DNA from: an uncultured Opitutia bacterium
GTDB lineage: Bacteria > Verrucomicrobiota > Verrucomicrobiia > Opitutales > Opitutaceae
Reading direction: 5' to 3'
Assembly: GCA_903834135.1 (NCBI GenBank)
Contig: CAILHZ010000007.1
Location: forward strand, 1 to 64,000
DNA length: 64,000 bases
Under the pieces are notes generated by a model. That model was not told the origin of the DNA, ran no database searches, and was given only the letters and a program-made list of their open reading frames with translations. How positions within the stretch are numbered: position 1 is the first letter of the stretch; each line of letters opens with the position of its first letter. Position numbers and translations under genes: made by a program. Below, piece by piece: positions 5,253 to 41,500 of the stretch.

Positions 5253-5291
5253 ACAGTGATAATTTTAAAAATAATATCTTAAAATAAGATA

Positions 5292-7259: not shown

Positions 7260-7269
7260 TAGTTAGTCT

Positions 7270-9237
7270 TTATTCTCCTGATCTGCACCACGTTTGCCAC
7301 ACCTCTTGTACAGATTGACCAAAATTTGCTCCTTGAGTGCTGTAATTACATAATAGACTTTGCCTAACCTTATCTCGTAGCTGTTTACGTTTATCCAAGC
7401 TTCTATCTAGTCCACGAGCAACTTCAGCAGCAAGTGCTACATAGTCCTGCGGAGTTTTAGCAACCCACATAGGATGTCCAACTGCAGTTAATAAACTCTG
7501 CCCCACTCGGTTAATATGCCTATCACCAGCCAGTGTAATTACAGGTACTCCCATCCAAAGTGTATCGCACGTTGTGGTAGTTCCATTGTAAGGAAAGGTA
7601 TCTAGTGCTATATCAATCTTAGAAAACGATTCAAAGTACTCTTCAAAACCAACTGTTCTATCCCAGGTATCTACACGCTCTACAGGAATTTTTAGTTTTA
7701 TAAGTCTCTCAGTGAGTCTATTTTTAATCAGCGGATCTGAAAAGTGCTCTCCCTTAATGACAAGCCGAGATTCAGGCACTACTTCAAGTAAAAGTGCCCA
7801 AAGACTAAGCATAAAATCAGTCACCTTAGAATAATTGTTTATGCACGCAAAGGTAATAGGCCCCTGGGTCTGAACTTTTAGTTCACCCGCAGCTTTGGGT
7901 GGCAGATAACTCCATGCACAGGTTGAAAACCTGACTCGTTTTTCTGAATAAAAGTTTAAGGTATCTTCTTGTGGATCCGTAATACAATCCACAAAGCGGT
8001 AATCCATAGCAGCTAACCCTGTTGTATCCGGATAGCCTAAATAAGAAATTTGAACAGGCGCTACTCTTTTAGCAAAAATAGGCAGTCTATTATAGCCCGT
8101 GTGTCCTGCTAAATCGATTAGGACATCAATTTCATCCTCCTTAATCTTTTTTATAACAAAGTCATTTTGAAGCCCTGTAAAATTAGTGTACTTATCTGCT
8201 AAGTGCTTAAGCCTTTCAGTAGTCTCATCCACAATCACTAAATCGTGATATAAAAAGATCTCAAATTTAGCCTTATCTAAAGACTGCAGGATTGGCTCCA
8301 TGAAAACCGAAACTGCGTGTGTTCTAAAATCAGGAGAAATAAAAGCTAACTTAATTTTACGATTAATATCTCGGCTATAATTAAACTTAACCTTAAGCGC
8401 TTCCTCTGGATTAAAGAGACTCCCAAATTCACGGTGTGCTAGATCTAGCTCACTTCTAGGTCTACCTAGGTACTGCATAAGTAGAAGCATCGAACTTCTT
8501 ACTTCCGTATTTGTAGGCTGCAGTTGAATCGCTGTTAAATATGCTTCGTAGGCATGATTAAGCCTAAAGCATTTCTCAAGCGCTAAACCAAACGCCGCAT
8601 GAGCCTGTGCAAATTTACCATCTAAATTAATCGAATTCGCTAAGTGAGTAAGCGCTTCCCCAATATAACCCATGTAGTAGCGGCAAACCCCTAAGTAAAA
8701 CCAACTCCTTGAGCGATTAGGATCTAGTTTTACGGCTTCCCTAAAATAAACTTCTGAAGGTCCATAGCCTTGTTTAACTGTAATTAAGGCTCCTAAGGTT
8801 TCATACGCTTCAGCAAGCGGCTTATTAACAGTAGTTGCCTGAATTAATATTTTTTCAGCTTCGTCTAGTTTTCCTAGTTTCCATAGCACTTTCCCTAATT
8901 CGATAAGTGTTGGCGAAAAAAGAGGATCCACCGCAAGCGTAGCCCTAAGCACTGCCTCAGCTTCGTGTAAGTTACCTGCATTATTATAAGCTACTCCAAG
9001 GCGAACCCCACATAGAGATGATTTCTGATTTAAACTGAAAGCGCGTGCTAGCTTTTCAATAGCCTCTTTATAATGACCAAGTTTTAAGGAGGCAGTACCG
9101 CACAAATGAAAGATATCGAAGTGATAAGGCGCTAATTCACAGAGTTTCACATAAGCTGCCTCAGCTTTAGCCCACTGGCCCGACTCCTGAAGAGCAACCG
9201 CTTTCCTGAAATCTAGTTCCCACCTTTTAGATATCAT
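7270..9237 (-). CDS. TPR + GT41 SPINDLY-type O-glycosyltransferase (paralogue A)
   Basis: 655 aa, first gene of the minus-strand GT41 array. TPRs cover about residues 8-265 (LAVDPLFSPTLIELGK, AVKLDPNRSRSWFYLG, AIQLQPTNTEVRSS). The catalytic half shows SPDFRTHAVSVFME (presumed catalytic His), DVLIDLAGHTGYNR, ACINNYSKVTDF (conserved Lys), LDTFPYNGTTTTCD and MGVPVITLAGDRHINR. The promoter for the array should lie in 9238-9567. The likely job is O-glycosylation of cytosolic proteins, or of flagellin or adhesins before export. The latter is inferred from the chemotaxis operon and the giant Ser/Thr-rich secreted proteins in this window, not shown by sequence. Confidence 0.9.
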   Translation of the reverse strand: MISKRWELDFRKAVALQESGQWAKAEAAYVKLCELAPYHFDIFHLCGTASLKLGHYKEAIEKLARAFSLNQKSSLCGVRLGVAYNNAGNLHEAEAVLRATLAVDPLFSPTLIELGKVLWKLGKLDEAEKILIQATTVNKPLAEAYETLGALITVKQGYGPSEVYFREAVKLDPNRSRSWFYLGVCRYYMGYIGEALTHLANSINLDGKFAQAHAAFGLALEKCFRLNHAYEAYLTAIQLQPTNTEVRSSMLLLMQYLGRPRSELDLAHREFGSLFNPEEALKVKFNYSRDINRKIKLAFISPDFRTHAVSVFMEPILQSLDKAKFEIFLYHDLVIVDETTERLKHLADKYTNFTGLQNDFVIKKIKEDEIDVLIDLAGHTGYNRLPIFAKRVAPVQISYLGYPDTTGLAAMDYRFVDCITDPQEDTLNFYSEKRVRFSTCAWSYLPPKAAGELKVQTQGPITFACINNYSKVTDFMLSLWALLLEVVPESRLVIKGEHFSDPLIKNRLTERLIKLKIPVERVDTWDRTVGFEEYFESFSKIDIALDTFPYNGTTTTCDTLWMGVPVITLAGDRHINRVGQSLLTAVGHPMWVAKTPQDYVALAAEVARGLDRSLDKRKQLRDKVRQSLLCNYSTQGANFGQSVQEVWQTWCRSGE

Positions 9238-12844: not shown

Positions 12845-13990
12845 TTAAGGGTTTTTACCGTTTACAAAGTATGTCTTAACTGGCCCAAGACCCTTACATT
12901 CTACCATACCTCTTTCTTCTAAAATGAAGTGATCGCCTAGGAGGACTTTGGTTTGCTCGGATATATTAATACGTCCTGGTTGTCCTGAAGATTCCATACG
13001 ACTAGCTACATTGACTGTATCACCCCACAGGTCATACGTGAACTTAATCTTACCAATAACGCCTGCAACGACTGGTCCTGAATGCATACCCATACGCATC
13101 TTAAGATCAGTTCCATTTCTTTCATTAAGTTTCGCTAGAGCGTCCATCATCTCTAAAGCAGAATTAACCACAGCTTGAGCGTGGTCATCACGGTGAGTGG
13201 GTAGTCCACCTACAAGCATGTAGCAGTCACCAATAGTCTTAATTTTTTCAACTTTGTTTTTCTCTACAATTAAATCAAAGGCTGTGAAAATACCGTTTAA
13301 AATAGCAACAAGATCAGCTGGATCTGTCTTGCGTGACATAGCTGTGAAGCCCACTAAGTCAGCAAACATAACAGTCACAACACTGTGTCCATTAGCGATT
13401 GTCTTTTCTCCGCCCTTTAAGCGGCCTGCAATAGCCCCAGGTAAAATATTAAGTAAAAGTCTCTCGGACTTTTCTTTTTCAAGTTCTACTAATTCTTTTT
13501 CAGCCTTTAATTGAGCAAATCGAATACGGTCTAAATCCCTGAAACGCTTCTTTTCTAAGGAGGTAGTAACACGTGCTCTTAAAAGTGTTGGATTTGGCGG
13601 CTTAGGTAAATAATCCTCCGCTCCTGCTTCAATACACTGCACTACTTTTTCAATTTGATCAGCGCCTGAAATTACAATGACTGGTACTTGGCTTGTCTTT
13701 GGGCTAAGCCGCATTGCTGTTAAGACTTCAATGCCATTTAAAATCGGCAGCTCCATTGACATAAGCATTAAGTCAAAGTCCTGCTCAAGCAGCATGGTCA
13801 TTGCCGCTTTACCATCACCAGCTTCAGAAATATGTGTAAAGCCAAGTTCATTGAGTGAGCGAGTCAGTGCAGCACGCATCATACGACTTCCATCAACCAC
13901 AAGAACACGCGCTGATTTAAGTGAGTTAGACACCTCTTCAGGTTTCAACTCTGCGATGGCTGCTATGTCTACAGGTGAGAGTTCGCTCAT
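12845..13990 (-). CDS. Pseudo-receiver fused to class III adenylate cyclase
   Basis: 381 aa. Residues 28-140 form a CheY-like receiver: VLVVDGSR instead of VVDDSR, conserved K130 (LPKPP), but LMSMELP puts Ser78 where the phospho-accepting Asp should be. A helical linker (145-180) leads to a class III cyclase domain (203-375): MFADLVGF with metal Asp211, KTIGDCY with Lys251 and metal Asp255, YDLWGDTVN with Asp320, and Arg331 in VASRMES. Lys plus Asp at the two base-recognition positions is the adenylate cyclase pattern (guanylate cyclases have Glu/Cys). So cAMP synthesis is predicted, with a receiver that should not be phosphorylated in the normal way. It sits 37 bp after cheY and upstream of the MBL gene. 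Confidence 0.92.
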   Translation of the reverse strand: MSELSPVDIAAIAELKPEEVSNSLKSARVLVVDGSRMMRAALTRSLNELGFTHISEAGDGKAAMTMLLEQDFDLMLMSMELPILNGIEVLTAMRLSPKTSQVPVIVISGADQIEKVVQCIEAGAEDYLPKPPNPTLLRARVTTSLEKKRFRDLDRIRFAQLKAEKELVELEKEKSERLLLNILPGAIAGRLKGGEKTIANGHSVVTVMFADLVGFTAMSRKTDPADLVAILNGIFTAFDLIVEKNKVEKIKTIGDCYMLVGGLPTHRDDHAQAVVNSALEMMDALAKLNERNGTDLKMRMGMHSGPVVAGVIGKIKFTYDLWGDTVNVASRMESSGQPGRINISEQTKVLLGDHFILEERGMVECKGLGPVKTYFVNGKNP

Positions 13991-14027
13991 AAGGTCAAAA
14001 GGTGTTACGTGTTATACTATCTAAAAA

Positions 14028-14426
14028 TTAGGCAGCAGGAGGTGCAGCTGGACGTGGCACGAGCTGCACTGTGCGACCAATCTTAGCAATCAAATCAGCG
14101 TCCTTGAAAGGTTTGGTAATATAGTCCTTAACACCTAGACGAGCTACTGTAGCAATAATCTGAGGATTAGCATCTGCTGTGAGCATGATTACGGGAATAG
14201 ACTTAGTACTCTCATTTTCTCTCATTTTAGTGAGCATGGTGACACCGTCCATCACAGGCATATTGTAATCCAAAATGATAACGTTAGGAAGCTTCTCTGT
14301 AGCGATAGCTAGGCCTATTTCTCCATTTTCAGCTTCGAGGAGCTCGACCTCAAACGGCTTTAGTAGACGTGAAATAACACTGCGTACCATTCTGCTATCA
14401 TCGACACTCAATATTTTAGCACTCAT
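14028..14426 (-). CDS. cheY: CheY-type response regulator
   Basis: 132 aa, single receiver domain. The acidic pocket is SVDDSRMV (Asp9, Asp10), the phosphorylation site is IILDYNMPVMDG (Asp53), and the conserved Thr and Lys are in VIMLTAD and YITKPF. The C-terminal tail is Ala/Pro-rich and has no output domain. It overlaps cheX by an ATGA at 14423-14426, linking the regulator to its putative phosphatase. As the only intact stand-alone receiver in the operon it is the likely CheA target and could act on the flagellar switch or on the next gene product, the cyclase. Confidence 0.93.
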   Translation of the reverse strand: MSAKILSVDDSRMVRSVISRLLKPFEVELLEAENGEIGLAIATEKLPNVIILDYNMPVMDGVTMLTKMRENESTKSIPVIMLTADANPQIIATVARLGVKDYITKPFKDADLIAKIGRTVQLVPRPAAPPAA

Positions 14427-14914
14427 GAGGTTATTAGCTTTTTCTGAACAGTTAGTGAAATTAAGTTACCATCACACAGCCAGTAAGTCTGAGACAGTTC
14501 GGCTGAATCTTTGGCTTCGTGCTTAACACGTGTGACTATAGATTTATCTGGGGGTACAAGTGTACAAGTAAGTCCTTCTGCGAGTAACTCTGCTGCAACT
14601 CTTCCACCAATCATGTTAGAGAGCTCTCCAACAACGTCTTTTAAGTCAGCATCTTGAACATCAGCAGGATTTTCGAATCCGAAGATTTGCTGCGCTACTG
14701 AGCGAACAAAAGGAACAGGAATCTCAAGGAAAATATCGCCCGTGAATTGAGGGCCGTGCATAGCAACATGCCCCTTTACACACAAAGTATCGTGATCAGC
14801 CAAGGAGTACTTCTCTGTCTCTACACCAGGTAAATGAAGCTGGGTATCCAGCACTTCAGCCATCGCTAAAGCAGCCATCTTATGTAGTTTTAATCTTTCT
14901 TGATCTGAGGACAT
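14423..14914 (-). CDS. cheX: CheX-type CheY-P phosphatase
   Basis: 163 aa, matching the CheC/CheX/FliY family. The signature DVVGELSNMIGGR gives the catalytic pair Glu97 and Asn100 (E-x2-N). The single such motif and the size fit CheX rather than CheC, which has two. CheX dephosphorylates CheY-P and thereby ends the signal. It overlaps cheY by 4 bp. A second CheX domain with the same E-x2-N motif is in the divergent gene at 23253, inside a CheD-like protein. No cheZ or cheC is seen in the window. Confidence 0.88.
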   Translation of the reverse strand: MSSDQERLKLHKMAALAMAEVLDTQLHLPGVETEKYSLADHDTLCVKGHVAMHGPQFTGDIFLEIPVPFVRSVAQQIFGFENPADVQDADLKDVVGELSNMIGGRVAAELLAEGLTCTLVPPDKSIVTRVKHEAKDSAELSQTYWLCDGNLISLTVQKKLITS

Positions 14915-14988
14915 GAATTGAAAATTGGATTGGTAAATAACGACACAGTCGTCGTGGGTATTTAAAGCTAAAAGTGATGATAAAGTTA

Positions 14989-16044
14989 TTAAATAGGTTT
15001 TAAAAGTTCCTCCATGATGGCAGCAGGCATAGCTTCAAGAGATTCAATACGTTCCACTGCACCAATCTCGATAGCAGCTTTAGGCATACCATACACAACA
15101 CAGCTCTCTTCGTTTTGAGCTAATGTCCTAGCCCCTGCATTTCTCATTTCTAATAGGCCACGTGCCCCATCTTGCCCCATACCTGTAAGCATTACACCTA
15201 CTGCCTTCCTCTTTGCATTACGGGCAACCGAAAGCATCATAACTTCAACAGAGGGCCTACAATGATGTACGGGAGGTGACTGATTAAGTCGTATGGAATA
15301 CCCCATCCCCTTGGGAATTAAGCTTAGATGGTAGTCACCAGGGGCTATGTAGCAGGTATTAGGCTTAAGCTCCTCACCGTCTATAGCTTCATGAACTTCA
15401 AACTGGCAAATTGTATTTAGATTTTCAGACATCAGCCTAGAAAAATTAGGCGGAATATGTTGTACGACTACAATAGGTGGAAGCCCTGCAGGTAATCGAG
15501 GAAGTAGGTAACGCAAGGCTTCTACTCCACCCGTTGATGAGCCAATAGCGATGATACGACCAAGCCCCAAATTAAACTGATTAAAGTCTTTTGGTTTAAC
15601 TACTACAGGCTCTTTAGCAACAGGCTTAAACTGCTTTTTAGAGGTTGCTGCTGCCTTAATTTGTCGAATGAGCAACCTACCCACTTCAGCCATGGTTCTA
15701 TTCCCATCTGGCTTACCTATCGCATCGATCGCTCCTTCTGATAACGATTCCAAGGCTTTGGCAGAACCTGCCTGAGTAAGGGAACTTACAACGATAACTG
15801 GTGCAGAATGATGCTTTTTTAAGAGTTTTAAAAAGGTAAGCCCATCCATTCTAGGCATTTCTAAATCAAGCGTGATAACATCAGGCTCTAACTCTAAAAT
15901 CTTATCTCTACCATCATAGGCATCAACTCCAAAGCCGACCACTTCAATATGAGGGTCCTTAGTAATAGCGTCAGCAATAGCTCTGCGTGCGAGAGCAGAA
16001 TCATCTATGACGACAACTCGAATTTTTTTAACTTCGTTAGTAAT
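14989..16044 (-). CDS. cheB: CheB protein-glutamate methylesterase, probable ATT start
   Basis: 351 aa if it begins at the ATT at 16044-16042. Receiver domain 1-125: VVVIDDSALARRAI for the acidic pocket, ITLDLEMPRMDG with Asp60. CheB esterase domain 160-350: IAIGSSTGG with Ser170, VVQHIPP with His196 and TGMGQDGARG with Asp292, a complete Ser-His-Asp triad. The first conventional start in frame is GTG at 15942, but this would cut off the first 34 residues, including the acidic pocket. The frame opens after a TGA at 16059-16057 and contains no ATG, GTG or TTG before 15942. AAGGAGG lies 5 bases before the ATT. It demethylates MCPs in adaptation, opposing CheR encoded just upstream. Confidence 0.9.
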   Translation of the reverse strand: MTNEVKKIRVVVIDDSALARRAIADAITKDPHIEVVGFGVDAYDGRDKILELEPDVITLDLEMPRMDGLTFLKLLKKHHSAPVIVVSSLTQAGSAKALESLSEGAIDAIGKPDGNRTMAEVGRLLIRQIKAAATSKKQFKPVAKEPVVVKPKDFNQFNLGLGRIIAIGSSTGGVEALRYLLPRLPAGLPPIVVVQHIPPNFSRLMSENLNTICQFEVHEAIDGEELKPNTCYIAPGDYHLSLIPKGMGYSIRLNQSPPVHHCRPSVEVMMLSVARNAKRKAVGVMLTGMGQDGARGLLEMRNAGARTLAQNEESCVVYGMPKAAIEIGAVERIESLEAMPAAIMEELLKPI

Positions 16045-16049
16045 AAGAA

Positions 16050-16056
16050 CCTCCTT
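16050..16056 (-). promoter_or_regulatory. Strong Shine-Dalgarno that decides the cheB start
   Basis: AAGGAGG on the minus strand, followed by TTCTT and then ATT. It is the best Shine-Dalgarno match I noticed in the che operon, and its position makes the ATT at 16044 the natural initiation codon. Confidence 0.7.
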
Positions 16057-16087
16057 TCAGTTGAAAAATGCGTATGGGTTGCTTAAG

Positions 16088-16111
16088 GTAAGCCTCAATC
16101 TTGAGGCTTAC
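16088..16111 (-). other. Perfect 11-bp inverted repeat between cheR and cheB
   Basis: GTAAGCCTCAA pairs with TTGAGGCTTAC across a 2-base loop (in practice a 10-bp stem with a 4-base loop). It begins 2 bases after the cheR stop on the minus strand. No T tract follows, so it is not a classic terminator. It may protect the 3' end of the upstream message, be a processing site, or reduce read-through into cheB. Confidence 0.55.
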
Positions 16112-16113
16112 TG

Positions 16114-16986
16114 CTAAGCACCGAGTTGATACACCCCTTGCTGTATTGAGTTTAGCCCATGATCCATACCTAGTAAACTTTCTGTGTGACCTACAATGAG
16201 ATAACCACCAACTGCAAGGTGCCGTGATAAATGCCTCACTAATTCCAATCGTGATTTTTCGTTGAAGTAAATCATCACATTTCGGCAGAATATGATGTTC
16301 TGTTTGTTAGGAATTGGAAATGCCGTTTCAAACAGGTTAATCCGGTCGTACACAACATGGGATTGAATCTCAGGAGAGATCCGCACATAGCCTGCGTTAT
16401 CATCAACACCTTTTTCGATATAAGGCTTGATCATATCTTGAGGGATATGCTGCAAGATCTGATCTCGGTATATACCACGGCGCGCTGTCTCCAGTACGCG
16501 TTTAGATATATCGGATGCCGTAACCTTCCACTTGACCATAGAATATGGCCTTAAAGCACGGGCTAAAGTAAGCGCAATGGAGTAAGGCTCTTCACCTGTC
16601 GAACAAGCAGATGACCAAATATTAATCGGAATACCTGAAGTTGCTACTTTAGGTAGAACCTCTGGGATAAACGTATTTTCAAGGAACGAGAAATGACTTT
16701 CCTCACGGAAAAATCGGGTATGGTTTGTTGAAACCATATCCAAGAGTTCTTCTATTTCTGACTCTCCGTCATGGGACTCAAGTATGGTCAGATACTCTTC
16801 AAAACTCTCAATACCGAGATAAAATATACGTTTTCTAAGACGATTAGAAAACAGTACTCTTTTATCGTCTCCGAATTGGATACGACTGTGCTGGTAGACA
16901 ATGTCTACCAGCCTGTGAAATGTAGAAGTACTTAGATTTAGGTCTCTATAGGTACGTTTTAAATCTGAGAACGATGGCTCATCCAC
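16114..16986 (-). CDS. cheR: CheR MCP methyltransferase
   Basis: 290 aa. The N-terminal helical CheR domain (about 15-75) is followed by the SAM-binding domain with INIWSSACSTGEEPYS (motif I), WKVTASDISK, IIFCRNVMIYF and GGYLIVGHTESL, all standard CheR landmarks. It methylates glutamates on MCPs with S-adenosylmethionine. It starts at a GTG 1 bp after the mcp stop; an out-of-frame ATG overlaps that stop (TAATG). No pentapeptide-binding partner motif is seen at the MCP C-terminus. Followed by a hairpin at 16088-16111 and then cheB. Confidence 0.93.
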   Translation of the reverse strand: MDEPSFSDLKRTYRDLNLSTSTFHRLVDIVYQHSRIQFGDDKRVLFSNRLRKRIFYLGIESFEEYLTILESHDGESEIEELLDMVSTNHTRFFREESHFSFLENTFIPEVLPKVATSGIPINIWSSACSTGEEPYSIALTLARALRPYSMVKWKVTASDISKRVLETARRGIYRDQILQHIPQDMIKPYIEKGVDDNAGYVRISPEIQSHVVYDRINLFETAFPIPNKQNIIFCRNVMIYFNEKSRLELVRHLSRHLAVGGYLIVGHTESLLGMDHGLNSIQQGVYQLGA

Positions 16987-16987
16987 A

Positions 16988-18598
16988 TTAGAATTTTTTG
17001 AAACTATCAGACTTTGCTAATGCAGTACTTGATGAATCATCAGGCATAGGAATAGCAGCTGCTTTACGCTTTGGCGCTGATAAAGCTGAGCCAGAGTGAC
17101 TCTTCTTGTGACTCTGCGCTGTAGCACGAGCACGTGGACGCTCAGTATGATGAGTTCCTTCACCTGCAGTTGCTTTTCCTGTGACTAACATCACTAGGCG
17201 GCTGACCAATTCATTAAGGTTGGAAGCTTGAGCATCCAATTGTTCAGCTGCTGCAGCACTTTCTTCTGCGTTAGAAGAATTGCTTTGTGAAATCTTATCC
17301 ATGTTAGCAAGAGCAGTGTTGATTTGCTCAATACCTTGAGCTTGTTCACGTGCTGCAGTTGCGATTTCAGCAACAATGCCATCCGTAGCTGTAACTTTTT
17401 GAGTGATTTGAGTAAGTGCGACATTAACGCGCTCACTGCATTGTGAACCCTTCTTACTATTAGTGATAGCTGCTTCAATCTTTTCTGCCGTTTCTTTAGC
17501 AGCAGCAGCACTACGTTGAGCAAGTGAGCGGACTTCGTCAGCAACAACTGCGAATCCAGCACCAGCTTCACCAGCACGAGCAGCTTCAACCGCTGCATTA
17601 AGAGCAAGAATGTTAGTTTGGAATGCGATTTCGTCGATGTTCTTAACGATCTTTGCAACTTCACCACTGGAGGAATCAATTAAGTGCATGGCCTGACTCA
17701 TTTCAGACATAGCTGATGAACCACTTTCTGCAACAGAACGAGCTTCAGAAGCAAGAGACTTTGCTTTTTGAGCATTTTCTGCAGTTGTACGAATCATCGT
17801 AGAGATTTCTTCTAAAGCGGTACTTGTCTCTTCAATCGAAGCAGCTTGCTCGCTTGAGCCAGTAGATAGGCTTTGGCTTGAGCTTGAAATTTGACCTGCA
17901 GCAGATGCTGTTTGTTGTGCACCGTCATCAAGACTTGTTGAAATATCACCAAGTGCTTTGTTAACAGCTCTGATGATTTGGAATGCAAGTAAGCAACCAA
18001 TAATTACAGCTGCACCTACGCCAATTGAAATGAGTGTTAAGCTCATCGTAGCAGTAGATTTACCACTATTTCCAGAAGTAGAACCTAATGACTCATTGTA
18101 ATCGATATCAGATTGAACTGATTCAACTTCTTTTTGATAAGCAGGGAGTACCTGGTCTACAAAGAACTTGTTTTCATCATCAAATTTACCGGCCTTAAAT
18201 AAATCTATGGCTTGAGTGCGAAGAGCAGTGAGAGCATCGCGGTTACGGACCATCTCAGTCCAGATACCTCTGTCTTTTTCATCTGAAAGAAGACCTTCGT
18301 ACTTTTTGATGCCTTCATCTGCTTTGGCTTGAAATTCAGCTACGGTCTTTAAAATTCTTTCGCGGTCATCTGCAGATGTTTTTGCAGTGATCGACTCAAA
18401 GCTCACCATTGCATCACGTGTTGCATTACCAACACCGAATAAACACGTGAAGCTAGGTATTGTATTGTCAACGATATCGATGATATTCGCTTTCATTGTG
18501 CTTACACGTAAGAGCGCGAAGCCACCAATACCTACAGTCAATACAACTATTGAGATAAAGCCGACAAGAATTCGGCGTGAGATAGTCCAGTTATTCAT
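16988..18598 (-). CDS. Methyl-accepting chemotaxis protein
   Basis: 536 aa. Membrane segment 1 at about 10-30 ([21 protein letters not shown]), a helical periplasmic domain of about 150 residues resembling the 4HB_MCP four-helix bundle, and membrane segment 2 at about 186-208 ([20 protein letters not shown]). Only a short or degenerate HAMP follows. The signalling hairpin tip is canonical: [20 protein letters not shown] then [16 protein letters not shown]. The last 60 residues are basic and disordered, with no NWETF-like CheR tether. It is the only MCP in the operon, so the cluster probably serves this receptor; the ligand is unknown. Confidence 0.93.
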
Positions 18599-18622
18599 AA
18601 TGATTAATTAAGCAGTTTGTGT

Positions 18623-19132
18623 TTATTTATCTAATTTGGGATTCGAAGAAATCGCAATAGTGCCTTCTTCGAGGAAAATTTTCTGAATATCGAGGAGTGT
18701 CTTAACACCACCACGGATTGTTGCTACACCAAGTATATATTGTGTATCTGTGCCAGATCCGAAATCAGGAGTAGCTTCGAGTTCGGCTTGAGTTAATTGA
18801 ACAACTTCTTCTACGGCATCTACCATAGCGCCCATCATTGTAGAGTTACTTCCTGGAATGTTAACTTGGACAATGATAATGCATGTCCTCTCACCCATCT
18901 CAGCGTGATCTAGTCTAAATTTTGCACGTAAATCAAGGACAGCCATAACCGTTCCACGCAAATTGATTACTCCCTTAATATGGGATGGCATGCGTGGTAC
19001 TGGCGTGATTGGGCAAAGCCTGATGATTTCACGCACACTTGCTAATTGTACACCGTAAGATTCAGTCCCTAGACGGAATGTCAGGTATCTGCCTGCTGTT
19101 GCAGTGGCTGTATGTTCTATAGTTTGTGCCAT
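18623..19132 (-). CDS. cheW: CheW coupling protein
   Basis: 169 aa, one CheW domain: YLTFRLGTESYGVQLASVRE at the start, PITPVPRMPSHIKGVINLRG in the middle and VRE/VVQLTQ contacts further on. It couples CheA to the MCP in the signalling array. It lies 15 bp after cheA and 24 bp before mcp on the same strand, so it belongs to the same transcript. No fused receiver, so it is not CheV. Confidence 0.93.
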   Translation of the reverse strand: MAQTIEHTATATAGRYLTFRLGTESYGVQLASVREIIRLCPITPVPRMPSHIKGVINLRGTVMAVLDLRAKFRLDHAEMGERTCIIIVQVNIPGSNSTMMGAMVDAVEEVVQLTQAELEATPDFGSGTDTQYILGVATIRGGVKTLLDIQKIFLEEGTIAISSNPKLDK

Positions 19133-19147
19133 AAGATTATAATTTAA

Positions 19148-21397
19148 TTAAGCTGCAGCTACTGTTTTTATTGGAGGAGGTGTAAGACGTACTAGAGTAT
19201 CTACATCCAAAATAAGACCGACCCAGCCGTCACCAAGTACGGCTGATCCAGCAAGCAAGTTTTGGTGTTCAAAGGTCTTACCAAGACTCTTAATAACAAC
19301 TTCCTGTTTACCGATCAGTTCGTCTACCAAAATACCGCGAGCTGCGTCTCCAGATTCAACAACGATAATAATGCCTTCTTCTGGGTTAACTGCACGTACA
19401 GGACGTCCGAGGTGATTACCCAATCGTAAGATTGGAGTTTGCTTACCACGCACATTAACCACTTCTTGGCGTTGTTGCACAGTGTAAATTGTACCCGCAC
19501 GAGGACGGAACGATTCACGAATTGCAAGCGTTGGAATAATATATCGGTCTGTACCTATTCCAACAATTAAGCCTTCGATAATCGCAAGGGTGAGTGGAAG
19601 CACGATTGTAAAGGTAGTTCCTTTACCTGGGGTTGAAGTAATCTCAACCTTACCGCGTAAACTGTCGATATTACGCTGTACTACGTCCATACCTACACCA
19701 CGACCAGAAAGATCTGTGATTATATCTGCTGTAGAAAAGCCTGGTAAAAATACCAAGGAGTGAATTTCAGAATCAGAAAGCACGGCTCCTGGTTTAACAA
19801 GACCGCGTTCTGTGGCTTTAGCTAAAATCTTTTCAGTATTAAGTCCCTTACCGTCATCTTGTACACGAATAACAATACCACCGCGTTGATGCGCAGCAGA
19901 TAAGTGAATCACGCCTACGGGTGGCTTTCCTGCAGCTGCACGGTCAGTAGGATTTTCGATACCATGATCACATGAATTGCGTATCATATGAATCAAGCAA
20001 TCGCCTAATTTCTCTACGATATTACGATCTAGTTCAGTATCTTCACCATCTAAAATTAAAGTAAGTTGCTTTTGAGTAGAGGACCCTAGGTCGCGAACCA
20101 AACGGCTCATCTTATGGAATACGCCCCGAATAGGCACCATTCTAAGAGACATAGCATTACGCTGTAATTCTGTGGTGATACGGCTAAGTTGGCGCAAGCA
20201 GCGTGCAAGCTGTAAGCTATTAATTTTTTGCACATCAGGGTTTTGCACAACCATGGATTGCGCAATGACGAGCTCACCAACCAAGTCTACCATGCTGTCT
20301 AGTTTACCTGTATCTAATTTAACAAATCCAGTAGCTCCACCTTCACCACCACCACCACCACCAGCACCAGCACCAGCAGCAGCAGCCTTAACAGGAGCTT
20401 TCGCAGGAGGTGTTGCAGAGGCAGGCTTTGCAGCAGCAGGTGCTGCTGCTGGAGCGGCAGGCTTTGCTGCGGGTGCTGCCTCAGCTTTAGGAGCAGCAGC
20501 TACAGGTGCTGCTGCTGGAGCTTTAGCTTTCCCTAATGGAGCTGCAGAACCACCCTTGGTTGCGCTCTTTGCACGTTCACGTAATTCTAAAGTAGGAACT
20601 AATATTGGAGTACCTGCTCCAACGCCGCGCAGCTGCGCTGTTATTTCACGGCTAAATGACTTAAGGGCGTCTGTACCAGCCAAAATTAAATCTGTAATAT
20701 CAGAATTTATACGTAATTCTTTTTTACGTATAGCATCTAACATGGACTCCAAATCGTGAGCCAAGTCACGAATTGCGCCTAAATGTAAAAATGCAGCGCC
20801 ACCCTTGAAAGTGTGAAACGCTCTAAAAATAGAGTCGATTGTTCCACTATCATCTGGATTCTCTTCAAAAACTAGAATTCCCTGCTCAATGTTTGCCAAG
20901 AGTTCAGCGGACTCACCGTTGAATTCATTGATGAGATCACGATCTGAATCTAAATTAAGAGTAATAGCAGGCTCTTCGCCTAAATCTTTTGCAGCCTCTG
21001 GCTCTTGCGCAACTTTAGTAGCAATTTTACCAGGTATAGCACCAGCATCTTTACTCGACCATTCTGGTAACACATCTGGGCATTTTTCCCCAAGACGCGT
21101 TGCTTCCATCGCTGCATCCATCCAACCATGCCACTTACCTAAACTTTCAATCGTAGCTGCAGATAATTTACAGCCATTATCTAAACTTGAATCCATCCAA
21201 CCTTTAGCTGCTAAAACAGCAGCTTTGATAGGTTCAGGAGTTTCTGGATGGATTAAATCACTTAACTCCATTACTGACCTGTTGATACTCAATAAACCGG
21301 TGTCCTCATTAGGAGCGACGAACGCAAGTTCTTCAGCAATCAGGCCTAGATGTTCAACCGCAGACGCAACGTTGGAAAATGAGCTAATTACAGACAT
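19148..21397 (-). CDS. cheA: CheA chemotaxis histidine kinase
   Basis: 749 aa from the ATG at 21397 (a GTG at 21403 also fits). N-terminal extension of about 145 residues with no clear domain; HPt/P1 domain with FRAFHTFKGGAAF (His195); Ala/Pro-rich linker at about 285-350 in place of a P2 CheY-docking domain; dimerisation segment; kinase domain with MIRNSCDHGIENP (N box), VQDDGKGL (G1), FLPGFSTA (F) and SGRGVGMDVV (G2); and a C-terminal CheW-like P5 domain. It passes phosphate from His195 to CheY and CheB. First gene of the minus-strand che operon; its leader holds a 14-bp perfect inverted repeat. CheY must be recruited without a recognisable P2. Confidence 0.95.
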   Translation of the reverse strand: MSVISSFSNVASAVEHLGLIAEELAFVAPNEDTGLLSINRSVMELSDLIHPETPEPIKAAVLAAKGWMDSSLDNGCKLSAATIESLGKWHGWMDAAMEATRLGEKCPDVLPEWSSKDAGAIPGKIATKVAQEPEAAKDLGEEPAITLNLDSDRDLINEFNGESAELLANIEQGILVFEENPDDSGTIDSIFRAFHTFKGGAAFLHLGAIRDLAHDLESMLDAIRKKELRINSDITDLILAGTDALKSFSREITAQLRGVGAGTPILVPTLELRERAKSATKGGSAAPLGKAKAPAAAPVAAAPKAEAAPAAKPAAPAAAPAAAKPASATPPAKAPVKAAAAGAGAGGGGGGEGGATGFVKLDTGKLDSMVDLVGELVIAQSMVVQNPDVQKINSLQLARCLRQLSRITTELQRNAMSLRMVPIRGVFHKMSRLVRDLGSSTQKQLTLILDGEDTELDRNIVEKLGDCLIHMIRNSCDHGIENPTDRAAAGKPPVGVIHLSAAHQRGGIVIRVQDDGKGLNTEKILAKATERGLVKPGAVLSDSEIHSLVFLPGFSTADIITDLSGRGVGMDVVQRNIDSLRGKVEITSTPGKGTTFTIVLPLTLAIIEGLIVGIGTDRYIIPTLAIRESFRPRAGTIYTVQQRQEVVNVRGKQTPILRLGNHLGRPVRAVNPEEGIIIVVESGDAARGILVDELIGKQEVVIKSLGKTFEHQNLLAGSAVLGDGWVGLILDVDTLVRLTPPPIKTVAAA

Positions 21398-21710
21398 TGT
21401 CACATATAACGGCCTAATTTTAGTTAGCTTTAGTAAAAAAAGTATTTTTTTACTAAAGTATTATTAAAATGCGACGACATCCACGGATTCGTAGCATGTG
21501 AATAGGCTATTAAGAAGGACGGGGAAGTCTGTTATTAGCTTAATGCATGCGCTTTATTAACTTACGACACAAAGCTGCATTACTTATTCAATTTTTCAGG
21601 ATTTATTGATCCTCTAAGCCATGCTTCGTGAATCTTACTTTAAGTTATTCCCCGATGATCCGATCTATTTACCTACTTCTATATAGTTATAGATTAAATT
21701 TTGTATACCA
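21398..21710. other. Divergent control region between cheA operon and channel gene
   Basis: This 313-bp gap separates the minus-strand che operon from the plus-strand cNMP channel gene, so it should carry both promoters. No coding frame is supported. It holds the hairpin at 21428-21458. I found no clear CRP-like or sigma-28/sigma-54 site by eye. Confidence 0.4.
21428..21458. other. 14-bp perfect inverted repeat in the cheA leader
   Basis: CTTTAGTAAAAAAA pairs with TTTTTTTACTAAAG across a 3-base loop. The inner half is a pure A/T run. It ends 30 bases upstream of the cheA ATG, so it lies in the leader or over the promoter of the che operon. It could be an operator, an RNA hairpin affecting translation, or a cruciform. 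On neither strand is it placed as a terminator after a gene. Confidence 0.55.
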
Positions 21711-23069
21711 ATGGGAGATAAAACGTTCCGCGAGCGCTTAATCATAAGCCATAAATCGCATATAAAAAACATCTGGGATGATTTTGTATTGTTTACGACG
21801 ACTGCTGCTACAATAGAAATCCCACTTCGTTTAGCTCTTCATTATCCCATCAAAGGTTGGATATACTATTTTGATATAGCTCTGATAAGTATTTTCGGAT
21901 TAGACCTGATCCTAAATTTTATAACGTCTTATCAAGTAGGTAATAGTGAGATTACCGATCCCTCTAAAATAGCATCCCGCTACCTCAAGGGGTGGTTTAT
22001 TTTAGATCTACTTTCTACACTGCCTTTAGATGTTATGTTGGCGTCATATATTGTGGGCTATAGCGCCCTAATTAGGTCAACTCGCCTAATAAGGCTATTC
22101 CGGCTGGTCAGAATTGCACAGTTCATGCAGAAACTGTCCAAGGCGAATATTTTTAACCCAGCTATATTGCGCATGGTTTTCCTAGGCTTTTGGGTAATGA
22201 TAGTCGCGCACTGGGCAGCCTGTGGATGGATAGCAGTGGGTGGCGGTAACATTGGTCCTGAATGGACCGCGAATGGGTACTTATTTTACATAAGAAGTTT
22301 GTACTGGTCTATTACAACGATGACAACAATCGGGTACGGTGACGTAACACCAGTAACTTCCACACAAACCATTTTTGCCATGATAATGGAGCTTATTGGT
22401 GCAGGTCTATATGGTTACGTCGTGGGTTCAGTAGCTAATTTAATCGCTAAACTGGATGTAGCACGCAGTCATTTCAATGAGCGCTTAGAAAAAATAAGTA
22501 CGTTTATGCGCTTTCGGAAGATTCCGATTGAAATGCAACACAGAGTGCAGGGCTACTACTCAAATCTGTGGGACTTACGCCGTGGCTATACCGAGCAAGA
22601 TGTTTTAGCTGAGCTACCCCCCTCCTTAAAACTTCAAATATCCCTTCATTTGAATAAGGATATTATAGCTAAAGTACCTATCTTCAAAGGAGCAAGCGAA
22701 AGTCTGATCGAGCAAATCGTAATCAATTTAGAATCCATTGTCTTCACACCTGGAGACTATGTATTCAAACAAGGTGATGTTGGAGATAGCATGTATTTTA
22801 TCAGTAGGGGTAGTGTTGAAGTTGTCTCTAAAGATGGTAAAACAGTCTATGCGACACTCGCTGAGGGCAATTTCTTCGGTGAAATTGCACTACTGCTAAG
22901 TATGCCTAGAACTGCTAGCATACGTGCAGTCGACTACATAGACGTGTACACATTAAGTAAAAATAAGTTGGAGCATGTCCTGGATAATTTCCCAGAGTTC
23001 AAAGAGCACATTCATGACCTTGCCAATAAACGCCAAATTGAACTCAATACACCTAAACCTGCTCAGTAA
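21711..23069 (+). CDS. Cyclic-nucleotide-gated K+ channel, SthK-like, with full S4
   Basis: 452 aa. Six membrane segments at about 25-240. S4 has Arg at every third position (R122, R125, R128, R131, R134), a full voltage sensor. The pore carries TTIGYGD (205-211), the K+ selectivity filter. Residues 250-325 match the helical C-linker of CNG/HCN channels and SthK rather than the short linker of MloK1. The cyclic-nucleotide domain (about 330-435) has the binding cassette FFGEIALLLSMPRTAS with Glu391, Arg400 and Thr401. It should open or modulate K+ flux on cAMP or cGMP binding in the inner membrane. Divergent from a che operon that encodes a predicted adenylate cyclase, its likely ligand source. 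Confidence 0.93.
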   Translation: MGDKTFRERLIISHKSHIKNIWDDFVLFTTTAATIEIPLRLALHYPIKGWIYYFDIALISIFGLDLILNFITSYQVGNSEITDPSKIASRYLKGWFILDLLSTLPLDVMLASYIVGYSALIRSTRLIRLFRLVRIAQFMQKLSKANIFNPAILRMVFLGFWVMIVAHWAACGWIAVGGGNIGPEWTANGYLFYIRSLYWSITTMTTIGYGDVTPVTSTQTIFAMIMELIGAGLYGYVVGSVANLIAKLDVARSHFNERLEKISTFMRFRKIPIEMQHRVQGYYSNLWDLRRGYTEQDVLAELPPSLKLQISLHLNKDIIAKVPIFKGASESLIEQIVINLESIVFTPGDYVFKQGDVGDSMYFISRGSVEVVSKDGKTVYATLAEGNFFGEIALLLSMPRTASIRAVDYIDVYTLSKNKLEHVLDNFPEFKEHIHDLANKRQIELNTPKPAQ

Positions 23070-23252: not shown

Positions 23253-24224
23253 ATGTGTGCTCAACGTACCATTATTCATCCCAGCTCATCTTTTGTAACT
23301 AACAAGGAGGACGCAGAACTTGCGTGCGAAAATATTGGGTCTGGAGTTTGTTTAGTCATGCGCGATCCAGTTTCTAAAACAACTGGCGTTGCTCATGTAA
23401 TCCTTCCCGATTCACGGCTTAATAAGATCGTTAAAACAAATAATCAGTTCATCTACGGAGATACCGCTCCGAAAGGATTACTAGATAAGATTCAGGATTT
23501 TGCAAAAACCCTTCCAGGCTCGCCTGTTTTAAACGCAAGTCAGATAAGTACATATCTGATTGGTGCTTCCGAGACGATGGACTCAAAAACAGATATTAGG
23601 TTAATGGCAGTACCTGCCTTAACCGCAGTGCTTAACACTCAGCTAAGATTTACCGCATTTGAATTTCCTAAAACGGAAGTAATTCCACAAGGAGGCCCTT
23701 GTATTCAAGCGCATATTAATTTTACAGGAGAGCGAATTGACGGAGAAGTTATCATACAATTTACTCCAGAATTAGTCGCAATTGCAGGAAGACGCTTAAT
23801 GGGAATGGAAGATGGGGCAGAATTAAGTGAAGCAGACATGACTGATATCGTGGGTGAATTGTGTAACATGATAGCTGGACGTGTGACTAACAATTTTGCA
23901 GCTGAGGGCATGTCGAATAAACTTTCCACACCTCGTACTTTTTCAGGACCAAGACAGCTACTAGAGCCGGATGAAAACTTTGAATATTCACAGACCGACT
24001 GGTCATGTGAAAAACAGCACTTAACTCTTCTAGTCAGAAAAACACGCGCTCAGCTCAATTTAGGACCTAAAATAAGAAATACACTACGCACTTCTCTTAA
24101 GTCGCGCGGAATAAATGTAAAAGCCGAAGTCCTAGGAGGGCAATCACAGCGCGCTGTTATTGTGAACGTGGCCAATGGATCAATCGTTGTAAAAGAAAAT
24201 GGCCATCCTGATAAGCGATTATGA
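23253..24224 (+). CDS. CheD-like protein with a CheX domain inserted in the middle
   Basis: 323 aa. Residues 10-105 read as the CheD N-terminal half: IGSGVCLVMRDPVSK, GVAHVILPDS, then YGDTAPKGLLDKI. Residues 110-265 are a complete CheX domain with DIVGELCNMIAGR (Glu202, Asn205). Residues 272-318 return to CheD: IRNTLRTSLKSRGINVKAEV then GGQSQRAVIVNV. So CheD appears split by CheX. The CheD deamidase Cys position holds Gly31, the catalytic Thr position holds Cys25, and His48 is kept; deamidase activity is doubtful while the phosphatase motif is intact. In Bacillus CheD binds CheC, a CheX relative, so fusion of the pair makes biological sense. It overlaps the HDOD gene by ATGA. Confidence 0.85.
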   Translation: MCAQRTIIHPSSSFVTNKEDAELACENIGSGVCLVMRDPVSKTTGVAHVILPDSRLNKIVKTNNQFIYGDTAPKGLLDKIQDFAKTLPGSPVLNASQISTYLIGASETMDSKTDIRLMAVPALTAVLNTQLRFTAFEFPKTEVIPQGGPCIQAHINFTGERIDGEVIIQFTPELVAIAGRRLMGMEDGAELSEADMTDIVGELCNMIAGRVTNNFAAEGMSNKLSTPRTFSGPRQLLEPDENFEYSQTDWSCEKQHLTLLVRKTRAQLNLGPKIRNTLRTSLKSRGINVKAEVLGGQSQRAVIVNVANGSIVVKENGHPDKRL

Positions 24225-25147
24225 TCACCGATAAATACGCTGCTCAGTTTGCTAATCTGACCAATTCAATCGATGTTGTTGTGCGGCTGATGTTTATGCT
24301 AAAGGACCGTGATATCGAAAATAGCGATATAGCGAATGTGGTAGCGACTGATAAGGTATTATCCAATACGTTACTTAAAAAATTAGAGAAAATAAGTAAT
24401 AAAGAAAGTGGCTATACTCCTCCTGAACTAGATCCGTCAGAAAAAGAACCTGTTTTATCCAATCAAGAAATTTTTGAGAATTTAGAGATGGCAATCATGC
24501 GTCTTGGACATGGAGAAATCTTAAAGCAAGTCTCAGGAATAAGTTTCGGCAAGATTTTAGGAGGTGAATGTAAAGGTTACGGTATAGCGAAAAATGAACT
24601 ATGGGTTCACTCTGTGACTGTCGCACTAATATCCCAGGAGTTAGCTAAATTAATCAATACGATAGAACTAGCCCAAGACGAGAATGCCGTTAAAATTGAT
24701 ACCACAATTGCATTTGTAAGTGGACTGCTACATGATTTAGGTAAGACAGCGCTAAGCGGGGACTTGGCTGCGAAGTCATCAACCTTTAGGACGAAAATAG
24801 ATTCTCGGTCTAATTCATGGATCGAAGTAGAAAAGCACATTTGCAATATCGACCATGCCGCCTACGGAGCTGAATTGACTAAAAAATGGAAGCTAAGTGA
24901 TGAAATATCCACTGCAATAGCTGGCCATCATACTCCACCTGCTAATGAGCGGCTCACAGCTATTGTACATTTAGCCGATTGCGGCTCACGCATACTAGGA
25001 TCGGCTCCTGGCATTGGTGGCTTTGCATTTAGATCTGACCCGCGTGCGCTACAAACAGTTAATTTAACTATGGATAACATAGAACAGGTTCTTATGCATG
25101 TAGCTGCCAATCAGGATACAATAGCCAATTACTGCGCTACTAGCTAG
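24221..25147 (+). CDS. HDOD-domain signalling protein
   Basis: 308 aa. The HDOD/HD fold is visible from about residue 10 to 290: SIDVVVRLMFMLKDRDIENS at the start, VSGLLHDLGKTAL near 165 with the HD pair, KWKLSDEISTAIAGHH near 225-240, and IVHLADCGSRILG after it. HDOD proteins are often non-enzymatic regulators in chemotaxis and c-di-GMP settings; here an HD pair is present, so hydrolysis cannot be ruled out. It overlaps the CheD/CheX gene by 4 bp, indicating coupled translation and a shared pathway. No signal peptide or membrane segment. Confidence 0.85.
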   Translation: MITDKYAAQFANLTNSIDVVVRLMFMLKDRDIENSDIANVVATDKVLSNTLLKKLEKISNKESGYTPPELDPSEKEPVLSNQEIFENLEMAIMRLGHGEILKQVSGISFGKILGGECKGYGIAKNELWVHSVTVALISQELAKLINTIELAQDENAVKIDTTIAFVSGLLHDLGKTALSGDLAAKSSTFRTKIDSRSNSWIEVEKHICNIDHAAYGAELTKKWKLSDEISTAIAGHHTPPANERLTAIVHLADCGSRILGSAPGIGGFAFRSDPRALQTVNLTMDNIEQVLMHVAANQDTIANYCATS

Positions 25148-38382: not shown

Positions 38383-38526
38383 ATAGGGCTAATTAGCCTA
38401 GAGAATTTGAGTGAGTTGTACTTGTTAGGTCTCTAAATTTCGTCTACTTTGAGGGCCATTTCTACAGTGCATATATTACTACAAAATAACGATCTATATA
38501 TGCACAAACAGGTGCACACTTTTTTC

Positions 38527-41500
38527 ATGAAATTTAAGTTTATACTGCTTATATTTTTTTTAGCCTTCGTTAATTTGGGTAATGCTCAAAGCATATTAAC
38601 CCCACCCTATTCAGCGACAATAGGAGACCGCGTCACATTCAAAATCGATTCCAGATTTGCAAGCCCATCGGATAAAATTGAAGCTACGTTTTATACAAGT
38701 GGAAAGAATGCGAGTTTTAATGCAATCGCTGCAACTTATGTATCGAACAATCAGGTATATGTTTTATTACCGGATACCTTAATAGGTAATACAATATATT
38801 CATTTTATATAAAAAACAGATCTACTTCTAGCCATAATGTAACAACACCGCCGATTAAAGTATTAGTCAGAGGCGGGTCACCGAGTTCGAGTAGTGTTGT
38901 AGTTAAAACAACTTCAGTAGCTCCTGTAGTTTCAGAAAAGAAACCTAACGAATTAGAAAATACAAATAAACCTAAAACAACTCTAGTTGAAAAAGATGCT
39001 ACTGCTCCAGCAGTTAAATCTGAAGTTGTAACACCAAAACCTGCGACTTCAGAAATTAAAGCAGTTGCAGTAGTCGAACCTGCTTTGCAGCCAAAAGAAA
39101 ATAAGGTGGAGAAAGTAGCTGAGCCTCAGGTGAAAAAATCTGAAGTTATAGCTGCTAAGTTTACAGAAACTACAAAAGAAGCTGCAGCACCTCAAACTAC
39201 TGCAGAAATTAAGCCACGTGTAAGTGAAGCTACTTCACCAAGCACAGTAAGTACTCCAGTCGCTACTAAGCCAGAGTTAACACCTATAGCACTTATACAC
39301 GAGCCGGAATCAATAAGTGTTGTAAGTGGAAATGCTGCGACTTTCCAAATAACTGTAAGCGGTACGTCTCCTCATTACCAGTGGCTATTCAATACACATC
39401 CTATCGCTGGAGCAAATGCTTCATCCTACACAATCAGTGCAGCTACTGATGCTAACGCCGGCTTCTATACATGTACTGTTTCAAATAGCCTTGGCTCAAA
39501 AACAACCTCTCCATTTACTTTAACTGTAACTGCTGCAGTTATCATTACAGCACAACCAGAGTCTTCAGTGAGCGTTAAGGCAGGCTCATCAACTACTCTA
39601 TCCGTAGCAGCAAGCGGCCAAGCTTTGCATTATCAATGGTACCTAGGCTCTAGTGCAATTAAGGCAGCAACAAATGCATCTTATACGATTACATCTGCAA
39701 CACCAGATGCACAAGGTTCGTATACATGCTACATCAGTAATGATGCAGGTAATACAACATCATCAGCAGCAGTTGTAACTGTAATTCCTGCAGAGCAAAC
39801 TGTTACCTTCGCAGAACTGCCTAAACTTAAGGTTGGCACTGCTTCTACTCTCTCTGCTTTAGCAACAAGTAATGGTCCTATCACCTACACACTCGTATCT
39901 GGTAACGCTAAGCTTGTTGATTCCACTCTCACTGCATTAGATACAAATCCAATTGTTATTGAGGCTACTCAAGCTGGTAATTCTAGTTTTGTTTCAGCAA
40001 CTGCTAAAGCGACACTTCAAGCATCTGCAGCTGAACAAACTGTTAGCTTTGCAGAACTGCCTAAACTTAAGGTTGGAACTACTTCTACTCTATCCGCTTC
40101 AGCTACAAGTAATGGTCCTATCACCTACACACTCGTATCTGGTAACGCTAAGCTTGTTGATTCAACTCTTACTGCACTAGACACAAAACCAATCGTTGTT
40201 AAAGCTACACAATCTGGCTCATCTAGTTTCGCCTCCGCTACTGCAGAGGCTACGCTTGAAGCCTCTCCTGCAGAGCAAACTGTTACTTTCGCAGCTCTTC
40301 CTAAACTTAAAGTTGGCACAGCGTCTACTCTATCAGCTTCAGCTACAAGTAATGGTCCTATCACCTACACACTTGTCTCTGGTAATGCTAAACTTGTTGA
40401 GGCTACTCTTACTGCACTAGATACAAAACCAATCGTTGTTGAAGCTACTCAATCCGGCTCTTCAAGCTTTGCTTCTGCTTCTGCTAAAGCGACACTAGAA
40501 GCATCTGCAGCTGAGCAAACTGTTACCTTCGCAGAACTGCCTAAACTTAAGGTTGGAACTGCTTCTACTCTATCCGCTTCAGCTACAAGTAATGGTCCTA
40601 TCACCTACACACTTGTATCTGGTAACGCTAAGCTCGTTGATTCCACTCTTACTGCTTTAGACACAAAGCCAATCGTTGTTGAAGCCTCCCAGTCTGGTAC
40701 AACTAGTTTTGCCTCAGCCTCTACAAAAGCTACTCTTGAAGCCTCTCCTGCAGATCAAACTATTACCTTCGCAGAAATTCCTAAACTAAAAGTAGGAACT
40801 GCTTCTACTCTCTCCGCTTCAGCTACAAGTAATGGTCCTATCACGTATACACTTGTATCTGGTAACGCTAAACTCGTTGATGCAACTCTTACTGCGCTGG
40901 ATACAAAACCAATCGTTGTTAAAGCTACACAATCTGGCTCATCTAGTTTCGCTTCCGCTACTGCAGAGGCTACGCTTGAAGCCTCTCCTGCAGATCAAAC
41001 AGTCACTTTCGCAGAAATCTCTGAACTTAAAGTGGGCATACCTACTGCCCTATCAGCAACAGCGACAAGTAAAGGACCAATCACATACACGCTGGTTTCA
41101 GGAAACGCTAAGCTTGTTGATTCTACTCTCACTGCACTAGACACAAAACCAATTGTTATTGAAGCCTCCCAGTCTGGCCTAAGTAACTATTCTGCGGCGT
41201 CTTCTACACTGAAGCTTACGGCTTCGTTAAATGCTATTGCAATAACTCATCAACCACAGTCGGTATCTATTGTAAGTGGGGGTTCAGCAAACTTTGAAGT
41301 AAGTGCAACTGGTACTTCCCCTACCTATCAATGGCTTTACAATGATAGCCCTATATCTGGAGCTACATCGTCCTCATTCAGCCTAAGTACTGCGACTTCT
41401 GCAAATGCAGGTAGTTATTCCTGTAAAGTATCTAATGATGCTGGTTCAAAAACCTCTTCAATCGCTAAGCTTACAGTAACTCCTGCTGTTATCATTACTG

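Follow-up and report, generated by a model that had tools for sequence, protein, structure and literature searches.

A CheD homologue interrupted by a complete CheX domain in the genome of an uncultured Opitutia bacterium

The nested gene and the surrounding chemotaxis genes

The window, a stretch of 64,000 nucleotides, is derived from a 185-kb contig of a 2.65 Mb genome which is 94 % complete. It includes a chemotaxis (che) operon on the minus strand and, on the plus strand, a gene coding for a CheD protein with a CheX domain nested within it, the stop codon of which overlaps the start of a gene for an HDOD protein. The features on which the analysis is centred are as follows:

12845..21403, minus strand: che operon encoding a REC-cyclase, a CheY-like REC, CheX, CheB, CheR, MCP, CheW and CheA (family searches; CheR by eye and by synteny with genome G278)
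14423..14914, minus strand: stand-alone CheX of the che operon, the nearest relative of the insert in its own genome (search and tree)
23253..24224, plus strand: nested CheD-CheX-CheD gene (323 aa; ATG start; stop codon at 24222-24224)
23253..23585, plus strand: N-terminal half of CheD, residues 1-111 (custom CheD profile, 2F9Z stretch and block pLDDT)
23586..24047, plus strand: inserted complete CheX domain, residues 112-265 (Pfam, tree, model of the insert and fold search)
24048..24221, plus strand: C-terminal half of CheD, residues 266-323 (Pfam, custom profile, 2F9Z stretch and block pLDDT)
24221..25147, plus strand: HDOD protein, the start of which overlaps the CheD stop (ATGA); the same pair occurs in eight sister genomes

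Searches of the genome identified one MCP, one CheD and two CheX proteins, one of the latter being the nested one. Neither a further CheD nor a CheC (0 matches to PF04509) was found in the 94 % complete assembly, and five matches to flagellar rod families are located on its contig C14. The last gene of the che operon codes for a response regulator joined to an adenylate/guanylate cyclase (12845-13990, minus strand), and a cyclic-nucleotide-binding ion channel is encoded divergently, adjoining cheA (21711-23069, plus strand). Together, the cyclase fusion and the channel may form a branch of the chemosensory system based on cyclic nucleotides. In the corresponding position, G278 encodes a REC-SpoIIE protein. 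The frame of the CheB receiver domain stays open, and its sequence conserved, ahead of the listed GTG start (15943-16113, minus strand); no ATG, GTG or TTG codon was found before this start, and an uncommon start codon is possible. Also encoded in the window are a 2609-aa protein with thirteen immunoglobulin-like stretches (Pfam; 38449-46278, plus strand) and three adjacent, similar-looking proteins of 623-655 aa, which by eye resemble TPR and O-linked GlcNAc transferase proteins (3381-9237, minus strand).

Domain layout and predicted fold

The reading frame at 23253-24224 is open over 323 codons, with no frame break. Pfam assigns residues 153-238 to CheX (E 1.8e-13) and residues 265-314 to CheD (profile positions 58-107 of 108; E 2.4e-6; 28.1 bits with a cut-off of 25, and 22.7 bits, below this cut-off, in the genome-wide scan). 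No Pfam match was seen on residues 1-112, and only the second half of CheD is thus recognised by this database. A custom profile constructed from 32 CheD ORFs of related genomes, with the nested protein and the sister protein of genome G264 left out, matches the nested protein twice, at residues 3-110 (profile positions 33-132) and 265-320 (profile positions 134-189), so that the two matches are contiguous in the profile and 154 residues apart in the protein. Comparison with PDB sequences using phmmer likewise aligned the Thermotoga maritima CheD (2F9Z chain C; whole-sequence E 1.5e-9) in two stretches, residues 20-83 and 268-318, the second of which is weak when taken alone (i-Evalue 0.47), with seven CheX/CheC-like entries matching between them (E 1.4e-5 to 0.27). 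The NCBIfam matches, all of which fall below the equivalog cut-offs, comprise CheD_Thtga (NF041119) in two stretches and CheX_Thtogales at residues 152-232.

An earlier note on this DNA, made from the letters and open reading frames, had proposed that about 155 residues of CheX are nested within a CheD, and that searches with the CheD (PF03975) and CheX (PF13690) families should reveal CheD in two segments. Two CheD segments do flank a single CheX match with the custom profile, phmmer and NCBIfam, with Pfam seeing the C-terminal half only, and the insert comprises 154 aa. The nested protein is a CheD interrupted by one complete CheX domain. Its outer domain is, by homology, a CheD, and any deamidase role of it would be putative.

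The whole chain was modelled with AlphaFold2 from an alignment of the nested protein and 57 CheD rows, with CheX rows absent, giving a mean pLDDT of 76. When averaged over blocks of ten residues, the pLDDT ranges from 85 to 98 for residues 1-110 and from 95 to 98 from residue 271 onwards, with values of 33 to 79 over the insert (residues 111-270), for which the alignment held no CheX rows. In a Foldseek search with this model, 2F9Z chain C aligned over 320 columns with an rmsd of 9.5 Å (E 2.6e-10; TM 0.87, taken on its 154 residues), ahead of CheX entries. A separate model of the insert, flanked by three or four residues on each side and built from seven aligned CheX rows, reached a pLDDT of 84 and a pTM of 0.82, and its best fold matches are CheX or CheX-like structures (TM 0.65-0.81), including the Borrelia CheX in complex with CheY (3HZH). 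The two halves of CheD are thus predicted, with high confidence, to fold as one CheD across the insertion, and the insert to fold as CheX, as the earlier note had anticipated. Its assignment of both ends of the protein to CheD is likewise upheld, for the C-terminal 50 or so residues by the Pfam match (265-314), the custom profile (134-189) and the confident fold from residue 271, and for the N-terminal part by the custom profile (33-132), the 2F9Z stretch (20-83) and the block pLDDT (85-98).

Insert-free sisters, altered active site and origin of the insert

Of the 200 genomes of the family searched, eight, which belong to two genera, encode a CheD of 180 aa without the insert (loci L003, L064-L068, L083 and L084; one of these copies corresponds to that on the public contig CANHAH010000121.1 of an 'Opitutae bacterium', L087). 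Each encodes one CheD, and seven of the copies share 83-92 % identity with that of G264. In two alignments, covering six and eight copies, these sister proteins match the host CheD without the insert, and their variable loop is the place that the insert occupies in the nested protein, just after the GAS strand and a few residues past the equivalents of Met101 and Phe102 of Bacillus subtilis CheD. The eight sister genes represent the empty site of the insertion. In a CheD tree (102 rows thinned from 123) the nested protein, a row flagged as long, joins the eight sisters at 100/100, and the grouping is backed independently of the tree by a shared Gly in the active site and the shared HDOD gene. 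The CheD stop and HDOD start overlap by four bases in all nine cases, and the eight sister HDOD proteins share 36-39 % identity with the HDOD protein of the window in alignments of 303-307 columns. Upstream of CheD, flgF is encoded divergently in 8/8 sisters. The sister CheD genes show dN/dS values of 0.056-0.27 over 28 pairs, which indicates purifying selection. No CheX was found in any of the eight genomes (completeness 80-96 %, with four of them at least 90 % complete), so that the CheD module of the sisters seems to work without one.

The residues considered in the CheD active site and the CheX phosphatase pair are:

23325..23327, plus strand: Cys25, at the CheD Thr position (CheD alignment)
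23343..23345, plus strand: Gly31, at the CheD catalytic Cys position (CheD alignment)
23349..23351, plus strand: Cys33, invariant in the nine-gene lineage, two residues past the canonical Cys (alignments of the lineage)
23394..23396, plus strand: His48, the kept catalytic His (CheD alignment)
23856..23858, plus strand: Glu202 of the CheX ExxN phosphatase pair (CheX alignment)
23865..23867, plus strand: Asn205 of the CheX ExxN phosphatase pair (CheX alignment)

Of 123 distinct CheD rows in which the catalytic Cys and His positions are both occupied, 114 have Cys and nine have Gly at the former, the nine being the nested protein and its eight sisters. The catalytic His is present in 123/123 rows. 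A profile based on Cys-type CheDs had been used to collect the rows, and the named loci were picked by a pattern containing this His, so that the His count holds partly by construction. The positions of Gly31, Cys25 and His48 given in the earlier note all hold in the alignments. In the ungapped alignment the canonical catalytic Cys of CheD thus appears to be lost in the nested protein and replaced by Gly31, and loss of the deamidase function from its CheD half is likely. The note had proposed this loss; the absence of the canonical Cys stands, and the loss of activity falls short of proof because the Cys two residues further on is invariant in all nine genes.

This Cys33 could, with His48, form the shifted active site of an altered yet active deamidase to which CheX was added as a regulatory unit. 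Besides the invariance of Cys33 (9/9) and the retention of His in the nine, such an arrangement would be in line with a gapped HMMER alignment, in which a two-residue gap pairs Cys34 of a sister protein with the catalytic Cys of T. maritima CheD, and the neighbouring Cys and this pairing leave some doubt about the loss of the catalytic Cys. It is opposed by the ungapped register, in which IGS-Gly31 lies over LGS-Cys, the spacing from Asp38 to His48 is equal, and modelled strands at residues 21-28 and 32-38 flank a turn at 29-31 around Gly31 (the model lends no independent support to this register, as it was built on the same ungapped alignment), and also by the replacement of the CheD Thr with Cys in the nested protein and Ala in the sisters. 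We therefore consider an active deamidase improbable.

All nine genes carry Gly and the eight sisters are free of the insert, from which it follows that the Cys was most likely lost ahead of the CheX insertion. The change from Cys to Gly is accordingly a trait of the host lineage and no consequence of the fusion. The earlier note had anticipated neither this nor the HDOD gene that overlaps the CheD stop codon in 9/9 cases. The sister lineage, with Gly in place of the catalytic Cys, an HDOD partner gene and flgF nearby, probably consists of pseudo-deamidases.

The phosphatase pair that had been noted in the insert, Glu202 and Asn205, is confirmed and is invariant in 8/8 aligned CheX rows, the insert included. 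Over its entire length, the insert can be aligned with the 163-aa operon CheX encoded 9 kb away in its own genome (48 identical positions in 163 columns) and with that of G278 (53 in 164), and it is only 31-34 % identical to the nearest relatives found. In a CheX tree of 37 rows, the insert groups with its own and the G278 operon CheX at 100/99, and with its own at 97/77, with long-branch warnings on all three. By its grouping with operon CheX proteins, the insert is of the che-operon type, and descent from the copy in its own genome is one candidate origin. The three segments of the nested gene are similar in GC content (0.42, 0.41 and 0.43) and no direct repeats of at least 12 bases were found in 23400-24300, so that the route of insertion leaves no visible trace. 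As the occupied loop is the variable one in the sisters, CheX may have entered a tolerant site in a passive fusion, where both parts work as before and their linkage has no role. This, too, we regard as improbable, considering that CheX and its CheD host are components of one pathway, that the gene lies near cheA, and that both parts and the frame have been kept although the insert has diverged to this extent from its nearest relatives found.

Full-protein searches located the nested form in 1/273 genomes of the order (26 with any match), 1/387 of the phylum (28 with any match) and 1/13 of the genus (4 with any match), these genome sets being overlapping. No other split CheD was seen in the match tables of a CheD-family search of the class (matches in 69 of 384 genomes), in which a partial match in G212 has an internal stop and several long ORFs match in one contiguous piece, nor in those of a sister-protein search of the family (matches in 77 of 200 genomes). 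The nested form is absent from the named loci (0/80), which are the best 80 of at least 239 relatives on at least 592 stretches. No relative was found in a single-protein scan of genome contigs or a scan of viral contigs with the CheD alignment, and tblastn against plasmids gave no match. Restriction to one genome might be taken to indicate an assembly artefact or a degenerate pseudogene, which we consider scarcely credible given the 323-codon open frame, the similar GC content of the three segments, the 185-kb contig, the conserved HDOD overlap and the confident CheD fold spanning the insertion. Furthermore, the sequence of the insert differs widely from that of the second CheX in this genome, which excludes a misjoin at a repeat. 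Assembly error was rejected on these grounds.

Proposed function and comparison with known systems

The residues of B. subtilis CheD next to the corresponding insertion point have known roles. Met101 and Phe102 lie at the CheC interface, the M101A and M101E variants have little deamidase activity, and F102E is left with about 10 % of the binding to CheC and a third of that to receptors (PMC3513319). Their equivalents in the nested protein are Glu107 and Thr108 in the ungapped alignment, with mostly Val, Ile, Leu or Met in other CheDs of the class, and docking in the known mode is consequently doubtful. Given these residues and the apparent lack of CheX among the sisters, the CheD platform may bind a non-classical partner, for which the HDOD protein is the first candidate.

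The explanation we favour, to which we give an even chance, is that of a single-chain regulator in which a pseudo-deamidase CheD scaffold carries a CheY-P phosphatase CheX and works with an HDOD partner, in a flagellated genome with one receptor. The host belongs, as the sequences show, to an older Gly-type CheD lineage with an overlapping HDOD gene. A CheX of the che-operon type would later have been inserted into the variable loop directly behind the GAS strand, slightly beyond the positions through which B. subtilis CheD contacts CheC and receptors. The outer pseudo-deamidase with the CheD fold would serve as a docking platform, and the inserted CheX, with its intact fold and phosphatase pair, would bind CheY-P and remove the phosphate via Glu202 and Asn205. 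The likely effect would be to place a CheY-P phosphatase wherever the CheD/HDOD module sits, whether at the receptor array or a flagellar module, with the signal cleared locally at that module. Binding of CheY-P to CheX may also affect the binding partners of the CheD face.

The last step is central to the switch suggested in the earlier note, a CheC/CheD-like device in one chain. In such a device, CheY-P on CheX would make the CheD face accessible or inaccessible to the receptor, and a single protein would provide the feedback for which B. subtilis uses CheC and CheD. The insertion starts only a few residues past the CheC-contacting positions in the alignments, and the catalytic Cys is lost, binding being the role of CheD that counts in B. 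subtilis (PMC3513319). The genome also encodes a single MCP, with CheC not found. Against this, the insert is a CheX and not a CheC, and Glu107 and Thr108 occupy the contact positions. CheX is not known to bind CheD. A CheY-P-responsive device in which the nested CheX moves the pseudo-CheD face, or the HDOD partner, on or off the single receptor is plausible, though rather unlikely. If it does exist, output sensing, signal removal and receptor tuning would be combined in one polypeptide that replaces the CheC/CheD pair.

The preferred scaffold-and-phosphatase arrangement would likewise bear on the role of CheD in adaptation. For B. subtilis chemotaxis, the binding of CheD to CheC is described as mattering more than the deamidase activity, itself of minor importance, and CheY-P tightens the CheC-CheD complex about 7-fold; the two proteins bind reversibly and with micromolar affinity (PMC3513319), so that the contribution of this contact to adaptation is difficult to single out. 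A natural covalent CheX-CheD chain with an altered CheD enzyme site separates binding from deamidation, and allows the importance of CheD as a binder to be put directly to the test. The nested gene also leads to a group of CheDs that are probably pseudo-deamidases and whose genes are linked with one for an HDOD protein. Among the papers listed in a search of freely accessible literature, none was found to describe a CheX within a CheD, and CheD and/or CheX are treated as separate proteins in the available text of PMC2577667, PMC9239204, PMC8235581, PMC3447774 and PMC2666748. The domains are thus known, and their nesting is new and found in one genome.

When compared with the CheD deamidase (PF03975; 2F9Z chain C), the nested protein is alike in its fold, in both halves and in the catalytic His, but is split by 154 residues and differs in the changes of Cys to Gly and Thr to Cys and in the Glu and Thr at the Met and Phe positions of the partner loop. 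The insert resembles the CheX phosphatases (PF13690; 1SQU, 1XKO and 3HZH) in its full-length fold and ExxN pair. However, stand-alone CheX is a homodimer (PMC8235581), whereas the insert has no free termini and is enclosed in another protein. The eight Gly-type sister CheDs share with the nested protein the replacement of Cys by Gly, the Cys two residues on and the overlapping HDOD gene, but lack the insert, have a divergent flgF upstream (8/8) and occur in genomes in which no CheX was found (8/8). In the CheC-CheD complex of T. maritima and B. subtilis (2F9Z; PMC3513319), a protein of the CheC/CheX family likewise associates with CheD, close to the loop that carries the insert in the nested protein. 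That complex is formed reversibly from two chains, CheC and an active CheD, whereas the nested protein is one covalent chain with CheX, from a genome in which no CheC was found, and its second domain is inserted within CheD rather than joined end to end.
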